Shown: piece by piece, positions 13,096 to 36,195 of the stretch
Layout of the letters: each line of letters starts with the position of its first letter
Position numbering within the stretch: position 1 is the stretch's first letter
Source of the DNA: Candidatus Methanovorans sp.
GTDB taxonomy: Archaea > Halobacteriota > Methanosarcinia > Methanosarcinales > Methanosarcinaceae
Length of the DNA: 50,472 bases
Assembly (NCBI GenBank): GCA_020793565.1
Contig: DQIP01000231.1
Span: forward strand, 1-50,472
Reading direction: 5' to 3'
Notes under the pieces: generated by a model
What the model saw: only the letters and a program-made list of their open reading frames with translations
What the model was told of the DNA's origin: nothing
Database searches by the model: none
Made by a program: the position numbers and the translations under genes

Positions 13096-13363
13096 TTATG
13101 CTGATTGTGATGTTATTACTGTTAATGTGAAGATATTTGCAAATATAGCGGATAGTGCAAGCTCTAAAAATGTGCTGAAATGTAGGAGAAAAGATATAAT
13201 GTAGAGGTAAAGATTAAATAAATCGGAAATAGGAGTGGATATTGGGCTAAAATGGGTGAATTCGGCCAAATGTTAACAAAATATTATTATAATGATGGAA
13301 ACATGCAGTTAATATGTCCTGAGTGGGTGAAAATCCGGGCTAAAACGACCGTTTCTAGTTGGA

Positions 13364-13422
13364 TATAATCTATAGGATTATGTAGTCCGAGTTAATTCGA
13401 CCGTAGGGAGGATTTTCTCGTC
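13364..13422 (-). repeat. Hairpin repeat unit (reverse)
   Basis: ATAATCTATAGGATTATGTAGTCCGAGTTAATTCGACCGTAGGGAGGATTTTCTCGT. Confidence 0.85.
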
Positions 13423-21084: not shown

Positions 21085-21145
21085 TACGAGCAAATCCTCG
21101 TTACACCCGGATTAACTCGGACGATATAATTCTATATATATAACA
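21085..21145 (+). repeat. Diverged hairpin repeat unit
   Basis: ACGAGCAAATCCTCGTTACACCCGGATTAACTCGGACGATATAATTCTATATAT. Confidence 0.65.
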
Positions 21146-21299
21146 TATATAATATAAATAATAAACAAAGAATGCCGTAAATGTTGCACAACGTCCGGCA
21201 TCCTTGTTTAATGTTCATTTTTTAGAGTACATAATAAAATTATATAGTCCAGATAAATCCGACCGAAGGAAGGATCTGCTTGTTTTGGAAATTGTGGGA

Positions 21300-32060: not shown

Positions 32061-32173
32061 ATCTTACTTTCCGCACATCTCATTTGGTTTTAAATCGTAT
32101 TTTATCCCATTGAATTTCCGAGAGCACTCCCAATTATGCTATAGTTGATGTAACCAACTTGTTCAGGCTTGCA

Positions 32174-32232
32174 ATGAGAAAATTCTCGCTACGGTCGAAT
32201 TAATTTGGACTATATAATTCTATAAATGATAT
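32174..32232 (+). repeat. Diverged hairpin repeat unit
   Basis: GAGAAAATTCTCGCTACGGTCGAATTAATTTGGACTATATAATTCTATAAATGATAT. Confidence 0.7.
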
Positions 32233-32782
32233 CCTATAAAAAATAATAATTAGAAATAATAATTATTCAATTGAGGTGGGTTTTGGGACAGCCTGTAATG
32301 ATGAATCCCACTGCGCTATCGGATAAGAATCTTCTGTATGCAATTTCTATACCATCTCTGGAGATATTTATTTTTTCAGCCTGTCCCGTCATCTCAGCGC
32401 CCTCTGTGTCTCAGTGACAAACAAATAGTATGGCAGAACCACATCCATGCTACCGCCCCGACCTCCACATAATTCAATTTTAGCCTCCCGAACTAAATAT
32501 CCCCATTAATAAAATAAAGCCTTCATTATGCTTATATCCATTGGTGTTCGGTTAAGGAGTTTTGGATCAGTTCAATGGATGTATGCTATTTAGCACGATT
32601 TTTCTCTTAACCCCCATCTTCGTCAGTATGAAATAAAATAGCTATCATTAGACCGCACCCATTTTTGAATATGTTCTACACCATCTTACCCTATCGATTT
32701 CAAGTAATTGTTCATTCCCAAATACTCCCATTTGACCTATAGGTTAACCTACCTTGTCACCAAAACAGCATCGGTGATAACA

Positions 32783-33613
32783 ATGTCCCTGGAAATCTCG
32801 AAAGAATATCTATCAACCTTTAATCGTCGAATTCAAACACAGATTTATAATGAGATACGGCGAGACTATTCATTCCCCCGTATAATCTGTCGAACACTGT
32901 CAGAGCTCTTTAACTCTTATTTCGACCTGTATTTTAGCAGCCAACGAAAAGAAGGTCAGATTATCTTCTCCGCCGTTTCCAGAGATGTTCCCCCTGGTGT
33001 ACCAGTAGAAGAAATGCACTTAATTCCAGTTAGGCTAACCCTTTACGAAGGAGACGATTGCACAGTCAAGAACCAGCAGGATCTGTTAGATAAGCGAATC
33101 ACCCGCCTAAGTAACGAAGCATATGTACAGGGTACTCTACTGACGCAGGCAGATATGGCCATCCTTCTCGGTGAAAGCACAAAGACCATTATGCGACATA
33201 TAACAGAGTTGGAAAACAAGGACAAGTTGATACCAACCAGAGGAAAATGGAAAGACATCGGTCCAGGAGTGAGCCACAAAAAGCGGATACTGGAACTCTA
33301 TCTCAAAGGTTATGAATATACCGAGATCGAGAGAAATACCAAACATACCGGTGCAGCTATCATGCGGTACGTAAAAGATTTTAGCAGAATGCTTGTACTA
33401 ACAGACGAAGGTTTCAATGACACAGAACTCAGGATCATCACCGGACTTTCAGACAAGACAATTCAGGAATACAAAGACCTGATTGAAATCTATTCTACGC
33501 CTGATTATCAGGAGCGACTAACTCAACTTAGGAATATATTCCGAAAAAAAACGACACACGAAATAAACAAGGAACCAACTCTCATAAACAATTCAGGAGG
33601 ATCAAAGAAATGA
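32783..33613 (+). CDS. DUF1670 domain-containing protein (multiple HTH segments)
   Basis: LLTQADMAILLGESTKTIMRHI...PTRGKWKDIGPGVSHKKRILELYLKGYEYTEIERNTKHTGAAIMRYV. ORF opens at 32708. Confidence 0.75.
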   Translation: MSLEISKEYLSTFNRRIQTQIYNEIRRDYSFPRIICRTLSELFNSYFDLYFSSQRKEGQIIFSAVSRDVPPGVPVEEMHLIPVRLTLYEGDDCTVKNQQDLLDKRITRLSNEAYVQGTLLTQADMAILLGESTKTIMRHITELENKDKLIPTRGKWKDIGPGVSHKKRILELYLKGYEYTEIERNTKHTGAAIMRYVKDFSRMLVLTDEGFNDTELRIITGLSDKTIQEYKDLIEIYSTPDYQERLTQLRNIFRKKTTHEINKEPTLINNSGGSKK

Positions 33614-34353
33614 AGGTTCCCCCTATGATTGAGGCAAAGGTAACTAACTCTCTGCAGGGTTCGATTCTTACTTTGATCCAGAAAGATTACCAGTTCATAA
33701 CTGGCGAGAAAATACAGAACCTGTTTGTTTCTGATCTTGTTGATTTGGTGGAAAAATGCTATCGAGAACCATGGCAATTGGACGTAGGACAGATAATGTG
33801 GTTTGGAGTTAAAATTCTGGAAAAACCGAATTATGGTAAAAATAGCAAAAATACTCCACTCACGCCGGTTGTTCTGACGTTAATCTCTAAAGATGATATA
33901 GATATGAAGAATGCTGGACACACTGGTAAAGAGATCAAAGAAATGAAGGTTGCGAGGCTGTTTAAGGAGGCATATGAACAAGATGTACTAATTACGCATG
34001 ATGATGTGGCATTTCTGCTTCATTCCACTATAAACACCATAAGTCGCTACGCAAGGAATTACATGAAACGAACAGGTGAAGTGTTGCCCACTCGGGGAAT
34101 TATTCATGATATTGGACGTGCAATTACTCACAAGAAAATTATCCTCAAATTGTACAAGAATGGATATCAGACTCCTGATATTTCAAGGATGACAAATCAC
34201 ACGGAACAAGCATGTGACCGGTATATTAAGGCATATAAGAAGGTGGAAAAACTAAGCAAGACCATGAACAGTGATGAAATTGCCCAAGTATTAGAGATGA
34301 GTAGGTCTCTTGTAGAAGAATACATAAATATTTTAAATGAGGAGGAAGATTAA
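33610..34353 (+). CDS. DUF1670 domain-containing protein, second paralogue
   Basis: VLITHDDVAFLLHSTINTISRYARNYMKRTGEVLPTRGIIHDIGRAITHKKIILKLYKNGYQTPDISRMTNHTEQACDRYI; overlaps gene 1 by ATGA. Confidence 0.75.
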   Translation: MKVPPMIEAKVTNSLQGSILTLIQKDYQFITGEKIQNLFVSDLVDLVEKCYREPWQLDVGQIMWFGVKILEKPNYGKNSKNTPLTPVVLTLISKDDIDMKNAGHTGKEIKEMKVARLFKEAYEQDVLITHDDVAFLLHSTINTISRYARNYMKRTGEVLPTRGIIHDIGRAITHKKIILKLYKNGYQTPDISRMTNHTEQACDRYIKAYKKVEKLSKTMNSDEIAQVLEMSRSLVEEYINILNEEED

Positions 34354-34908
34354 TGAATGTGATGAATTACGGCAAGTGTGGAGACCTATGGGTCAAATGG
34401 GAGTATAGTAAATATTTGCAATCGAATGCATCCAAAATGTTTTTTTGCGCATCCGTTATGGGCATGAGTTTCAGTATCTGGGATATATATCCTTTCAAGC
34501 CCAACTTTTCAATTTCAGCTCTCTCCAATGATTTATTTTATATGTTATAACTATCATATAAAGTTCACGGCTTTGGATTCTGCCTCACATCTAAAAAAGT
34601 TAACAAAATGTCGATTTAGTAAAAATCGAGAGGAGTGGACGTTAGAAGAGATTATTTAGGATGGAAAATGGTGAATTTAGGAGTGATACTGGAGAACATG
34701 GGTTAACCGAATACCAATGTACTCATATCTAACGATTTCTTGCTTTGAATCCTGAGGTGGTTACTAACCCTTACCCAAATTTCATCGAGGGCTTTATGCA
34801 TAAAGTACGTCCTGTGGAAAAAAATCCTGAATATTTTTATAAGGTCGGGTCATAATTCTACATTATACACAGAGCCCAACCACAAACTATCTTTAATTTC
34901 AATACTTA

Positions 34909-35808
34909 TTGCAGGCAATGATCGCTAACGTAATCAGGACATTTAAAAAACTTGACAATAAGGACTTCAGGGTACTGACCGGTATAGAGCTCGGGATGAA
35001 GAACTTTGAATGGGTGCCTGTGGAAGAAGTGCAAAAATTCACAAAATATCCGTATGGTGCACTACAGAACAAGTTTCGTTTGCTCATGAAAGACAATCTG
35101 GTCATTCGCACGATTTTGCCATATGAAGGCTACCAGATATATTTCGATGGCTACGATGCACTTGCATTGAACACTTTAGTAAAACGGGGCACGATCAGTG
35201 CGATCGGGGATGAGATCGGGGTTGGCAAAGAATCAGTAGTGTATGAGGCTATAAAAGAGCCAGAACTTGCCATGGGTAAAATGACACCTGTTATTATAAA
35301 ATTCCACAGGGAAGGAAGAACAAGTTTTACACAGGTAAAAAGAATTCGTGAACATCTTGCAGACAAGGAACATTTCTCGTGGATATATGCAGCACGCCTG
35401 TCAGCAAAGCGTGAATATGAGATCATGGAAATGCTCTATCCGGAAGTATCGATCCCAAAACCTATCGACCATAACAGGCATGCTCTTGTTATGGCAATTG
35501 CAAAAGGTAGCCTACTTGCCAAAACCAGACTTCTTAAACCTGAATGGTTCCTGCATGAGATCATTTCCCAGATCAGGATGACATATTCACTTGGTGTCAT
35601 ACATGCTGACCTGAGCGAGTATAATATTTTTGTATACGAGTGTGGCGTACAATTTATTGACTGGCCGCAGTATGTAAATCTAGATCATCCGCAGGCGGAT
35701 GAACTGTTAAAGAGGGATGTCTTCAACGTGCTTGCCTTTTTCAAAAGGAAATATGGTATCGAAATGGATGTTGATGATGTAGTTTCAGGAATCAAGGATG
35801 GCATATAG
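34909..35808 (+). CDS. rio2: RIO2 serine/threonine protein kinase
   Basis: N-terminal winged helix; GDEIGVGKESVVYEA, IRMTYSLGVIHADLSEYNIFV, FIDWPQYVNLDHPQA. Confidence 0.93.
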   Translation: MQAMIANVIRTFKKLDNKDFRVLTGIELGMKNFEWVPVEEVQKFTKYPYGALQNKFRLLMKDNLVIRTILPYEGYQIYFDGYDALALNTLVKRGTISAIGDEIGVGKESVVYEAIKEPELAMGKMTPVIIKFHREGRTSFTQVKRIREHLADKEHFSWIYAARLSAKREYEIMEMLYPEVSIPKPIDHNRHALVMAIAKGSLLAKTRLLKPEWFLHEIISQIRMTYSLGVIHADLSEYNIFVYECGVQFIDWPQYVNLDHPQADELLKRDVFNVLAFFKRKYGIEMDVDDVVSGIKDGI

Positions 35809-35825
35809 TTGATTGGAATATAAGC

Positions 35826-36195
35826 ATATTGTGTTTGTTTAGATGGTTTTGATAAAATGTATATGCATAATTTATATTGCAAAACCCCGCACAGCAATAC
35901 CGCCGCAGGCGGCGTAATCCAGACATCATGAAAAATATACCCCGGTCGAATAAAATTGAACATTTTCAATAACATTGGTGTGTAGGGCGGATATGAAACT
36001 AATAATAACACTTTGACGAGAAAATCTTCGCTGACGCTCAGATTAACTCGAACTATATAATCCTATAAATTATATACTACGAGAAAATTCTCCCTACGGT
36101 CGGATTAACTCGGACTCGTTCGCGCCAGTGATTTGGGAATGCACCGCCCGATGCGGATTGCTTCGGCGTCAAAAATTGCTAAACAAATATCATAT
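35826..36195. mobile_element. MITE-like element, copy B (contains two 63-bp hairpin units)
   Basis: Ends ATATTGTGTTTGTTTAGATGGTTTTGAT and TCAAAAATTGCTAAACAAATATCATAT (inverted); internal segments homologous to 6696-7120. Confidence 0.65.
36016..36116 (+). repeat. Hairpin repeat, one full unit plus a partial unit, inside MITE copy B
   Basis: Units start at 36016 and 36079 (period 63). Confidence 0.85.

Follow-up and report, generated by a model that had tools for sequence, protein, structure and literature searches.

We propose, at a probability of roughly 0.7, that a pair of overlapping, paralogous DUF1670 genes and the two terminal repeats around it make up an IS-like archaeal element, the two proteins of which would together form the transposition complex. 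The pair lies in the window, by which we mean the whole 50,472-nucleotide stretch analysed here (contig 193 of the source genome, G000, whose contigs are given C numbers below). Near-identical copies at unrelated sites, uninterrupted target sites and ends conserved around distant relatives carry this reading. We call the element IS-like, and place it outside every named IS family, because no recognised transposase or recombinase domain or fold was found by sequence, profile or predicted structure. A family of proteins of unknown function would thereby be assigned to a transposable element that is widespread in archaea, as its gene pair. Genome annotation would gain as well, because DUF1670 genes are at present listed by their lack of a known function, with no link to a mobile element.

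Structure of the locus

The first-pass annotation had described two nested inverted-repeat pairs around two DUF1670 ORFs that overlap by ATGA, and these features were all present. The inner pair, which forms the terminal repeats of Table 1, matches at 22 of 23 positions, and the outer pair (32539-32555 and 34703-34719) at 16 of 17. Neither is due to chance, since the best matches obtained in 300 dinucleotide shuffles of the flanks were 19 for a 23-mer and 15 for a 17-mer. The ORFs overlap at 33610-33613, both match PF07900, and on their strand they are the sole sizeable ORFs between the inner repeats. ORF1 most likely begins at the ATG at 32783, because the longer TTG start at 32708 falls outside the element. 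The exact ends of the element are ambiguous by the A-rich direct repeat AAATA, which occurs at 32720-32724 and again at 34410-34414.

Table 1. Features of the DUF1670 locus, in window coordinates
Feature	Position	Strand	Description
DUF1670 IS-like element	32722..34409	+	~1.69 kb; second copy in C160, four contig ends, five empty sites
Left terminal inverted repeat	32722..32744	+	contains core CATTTGACC; core conserved across the family
Right terminal inverted repeat	34384..34406	-	extends into AGT 34407-34409, present in other copies too
ORF1, DUF1670 protein, 276 aa	32783..33613	+	PF07900 E=5.9e-78; AlphaFold2 pLDDT 78
ORF2, DUF1670 protein, 247 aa, paralogue of ORF1	33610..34353	+	PF07900 E=5.8e-85; AlphaFold2 pLDDT 86
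Family A repeat, target of the DUF1670 element	32613..34702	.	ends CCCATCTTC / GAACATGGG; uninterrupted paralogues in C81, C146, C100, C1
Outermost MITE, 17-nt ends	32539..34719	.	interrupted by family A; complete 189-bp copies elsewhere

By contrast with the earlier claim that both nested pairs bracket a single unit, the outer pair proved to be the terminal repeat of a separate MITE, complete copies of which, with the same 17-nt ends, lie at C167:128-316 and C47:2194-2382; the outer repeat was accordingly ruled out as part of the element. The nested picture arises because three successive layers of insertion are superimposed, and the order read from the sequence is the MITE, family A into the MITE, and then the DUF1670 element into family A. 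TTAACC stands on either side of the family A repeat (32607-32612 and 34703-34708), which is unrelated to the DUF1670 element.

Two further repeats were seen in the vicinity. One, at 32170-32246, is an intergenic repeat some 70 bp long that is dispersed through the genome; its partial copies, at 82-89%, number more than 20 and include some within the window (13361-13419, 21088-21162 and 36081-36116). The segment 34733-34878, upstream of a RIO-kinase-like gene (34909-35808), recurs in C232 and C74 at 71-80%.

Copies and empty sites in the source genome

A second copy of the element, at C160:28895-30597, differs from window positions 32711-34413 by 1 mismatch in 1,703 bp, and the flanks of the two copies are unrelated. 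Contigs C141, C167, C168 and C200 start or stop inside the element with perfect matches of 77-99 bp, as would be expected of further identical copies collapsed in assembly. Five paralogous repeats elsewhere in this genome (C81, two in C146, C100 and C1) have the window flanks 32613-32719 and 34410-34527 directly adjoining each other, and there the site is TTCCCAAATATTTGC. Aligned at the junction, these paralogues read TTCCCAAATATTTGCAA, against TTCCC-AAATA-CTCCC...TATAGT-AAATA-TTTGCAA in the window, and on this sequence comparison they are empty sites of the DUF1670 element.

The proposal of a mobile element in the first-pass annotation is therefore borne out by near-identical dispersed copies, by terminal repeats conserved around other DUF1670 pairs, and by the empty sites that it had suggested looking for, which were found both in this genome and in other Methanosarcina-type genomes. 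It had also offered the alternative that the proteins are regulators with two operator pairs. HTH proteins beside inverted repeats would suit an immobile regulatory gene pair of this kind, but we regard it as very improbable: it is refuted by the empty sites and by the near-identical copies at unrelated sites, the distribution of the genes is patchy, and the outer repeat is that of a different element.

Remnants of the element also occur in this genome. A left end of about 26 bp survives as a relic in C40 (L215:2971), next to an IS1634-like transposase that is N-truncated, and a relic of the right end, 75 bp long and diverged, lies at L025:3976-4050 (C6).

Copies in other genomes

Among 101 related genomes, 25 contained PF07900, as did 58 of the 397 sampled from the phylum; the distribution is patchy, and many matches are fragments or contain stops. 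The named relatives are ANME-2 and Methanosarcinales records, and a search for viral, phage or plasmid copies of the element found none.

The closed 5,751,492-bp genome G445, which we take to be Methanosarcina acetivorans C2A, holds six copies that are 99.8-99.9% identical over about 1,696 bp. It also has a seventh at 96.5%, in which ORF2 is broken, and a single divergent DUF1670 pair. The six copies have sharp borders (...AAA|TACCCCC...GTTTAGA|AAA...), which the seventh shares except for TACTCCC. One copy splits an IS630-like gene that is intact in five relatives, and these carry ATAAAACC at the insertion point, which is exactly the predicted collapse and so identifies empty sites in other genomes. 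All eight DUF1670 loci of this circular-sized genome (L146-L153) lie on one strand, from 69 kb to 4.75 Mb.

In genome G029, two copies at unrelated sites (L092 and L093) differ by 1 base in 1,603 and have an ORF1 frameshift in common. Because the frameshift is shared by copies at different sites, it suggests help in trans, at least in that genome. A programmed frameshift was considered and set aside, as the change looks by eye like a plain loss of one base with no slippery site. One of the two copies also contains other insertions, close to its right end. In genome G075, a single open frame of 744 aa (L084:2220-4451) joins a DUF1670 ORF1 to the 3' part of an IS1634-family transposase, as would result from insertion of the element close to the C-terminus of the transposase.

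Conserved ends and insertion junctions

The first-pass annotation had held that the idea of a mobile unit would fall if other DUF1670 pairs lacked flanking inverted repeats, or if the locus were immobile and had no empty sites. The second condition is contradicted by the empty sites described above. As to the first, the repeats are present: divergent pairs, with proteins down to 25-30% identical to those of the window, show the same anatomy of ORF1 followed by ORF2 with inverted repeats just outside. Of 23 diverse DUF1670 loci, 16 carry the core CAWWTGACC on both flanks, matched at 8 or more of its 9 positions; when the flanks were shuffled, 200 times over, the number of such loci averaged 0.25 and never exceeded 2.

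Short direct repeats (AA/AAA, TT, TA, CT or GT) touch the ends of the element. Among 16 loci from other subfamilies, 13 had an identical dinucleotide at the two junctions, compared with an expectation of 6.6 when the partners were permuted (P=0.0008, corrected for the choice of offset, a value that is optimistic since the loci are related). These repeats could reflect either a real duplication of 2-3 bp or short homology at the crossover.

The DUF1670 proteins

Both ORFs cover the PF07900 model completely (positions 1-220 of 220), with scores of 261.7 and 284.6 bits against a curated cut-off of 25, and no other Pfam family exceeded its cut-off in either. Matches to PHROGs and NCBIfam were weak and mostly of HTH type. 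When the two families, of ORF1 and of ORF2, were compared by profile, the probability was 100%, identifying them as full-length paralogues, and dN/dS values of 0.07-0.21 show that both ORFs are under purifying selection.

The AlphaFold2 models predict a small N-terminal domain of two helices and two strands followed by three HTH units, the first of which is read as a winged HTH. The first-pass annotation had proposed comparing the predicted structures with known recombinases, and none matched. Foldseek returned nothing from the PDB at E<=0.001, the readable matches being HTH proteins (paired domain, Cbp1 and MntR), and the matches from BFVD were equally generic. An H...H...RY pattern noticed by eye in the alignment had raised a likeness to tyrosine recombinases, which was rejected when profile comparison gave a probability below 1%. 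Residues R116, E120, Q124, D132, R162, D167, H174, K175, H197, R204 and Y205 (ORF2 numbering) are invariant or nearly so in both paralogues and could be DNA contacts or an active site.

Possible mobilisation in trans

Terminal repeats that enclose genes other than a known transposase are also a feature of transporter IS and MITEs. In a reading of this kind the DUF1670 pair might be cargo, its ends recognised in trans by the transposase of another IS. The absence of a catalytic fold from both DUF1670 proteins speaks for this, as do the left end adjoining an IS1634-like transposase in C40 and the duplication in G029 of copies with a broken ORF1. We nevertheless judge it unlikely. In G445, the terminal repeat has 13 matches with at most 2 mismatches, every one of which is an end of one of the seven DUF1670 copies. 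With the repeat confined in this way no other element is seen to mobilise them; the repeated sites with 3 mismatches belong to a different MITE. The transposase in C40 is N-truncated at the very end in question, and the repeat is missing from its relatives in C187 and C13, so ends common to the IS1634 transposase genes were rejected and the C40 end taken as a relic by a truncated gene. Moreover, the ends stay conserved with DUF1670 down to about 30% protein identity, and both ORFs are kept by purifying selection. Unlike transporter IS or MITEs mobilised in trans, the element showed no transposase-bearing partner with the same ends in G445 or G000, although a partner whose ends have diverged could still exist.

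The other MITE of G445 is about 200 bp long (L246, L247 and L248), and its ends, AACCCTAATTTGACAGA, share 14 of 17 positions with the terminal repeat of the DUF1670 element.

Proposed mechanism

In the IS-like element that we favour, ORF1 and ORF2, probably acting as a heteromer, would use their HTH units to bind the terminal repeats, and would bring the two ends together and form the transposition complex. The pair would then carry out or direct insertion into A/T-rich targets, an event expected to leave at most a few repeated bases. For the cut-and-join step, the predicted proteins may hide an unrecognised active site, or they may recruit a host nuclease.

The second of these options, in which the role of the DUF1670 proteins stops at binding and pairing the ends while a host nuclease or recombinase cuts and joins, seems to us somewhat doubtful. 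It agrees with the HTH-only structure prediction, with direct repeats that amount to a few A/T-rich bases at most, and with the asymmetric ends. On the other hand, the invariance in both paralogues of several polar residues (R116, Q124, D167, H174, H197 and Y205 in the ORF2 numbering) is more than HTH folds usually need, an argument that is weakened in that DNA contacts could explain such residues, and no tyrosine recombinase domain was detected in G000, the assembly of which is 94.5% complete. Only tentatively would we go further and suggest that DUF1670 could be a new class of transposase or recombinase, in which two paralogous multi-HTH proteins act together through a novel active site in a widespread archaeal family.

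Relation to known systems

The DUF1670 element resembles insertion sequences in a length within 1-3 kb and in its terminal inverted repeats, compact ORFs, dispersed near-identical copies and empty sites. It differs from them in that no known enzyme (DDE, HUH, tyrosine or serine recombinase) was recognised in it, the place of such an enzyme being taken by two HTH-rich paralogues. Its proteins have a weak tandem-HTH likeness to Cbp1 and to paired-domain proteins, with no significant match, and those are DNA-binding proteins and not, unlike the DUF1670 pair, genes of a mobile element. No mention of DUF1670 or PF07900 was found in the literature searched.

With no known catalytic fold in the predicted proteins, the chemistry of the element's movement is directly testable. 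M. acetivorans, for which genetic tools exist, appears to carry recent copies.

Kamoun et al. 2013 (PMC3852290, Table 3) listed four IS of M. acetivorans with family unknown, no ISfinder similarity and a DR of 0; one of these is given 5 complete copies and an IR of 19 nt. Set beside this 5-copy IS, the DUF1670 element has 6 intact copies in G445 and repeats of similar length, and by this comparison of descriptions one of the unclassified IS may be the DUF1670 element.
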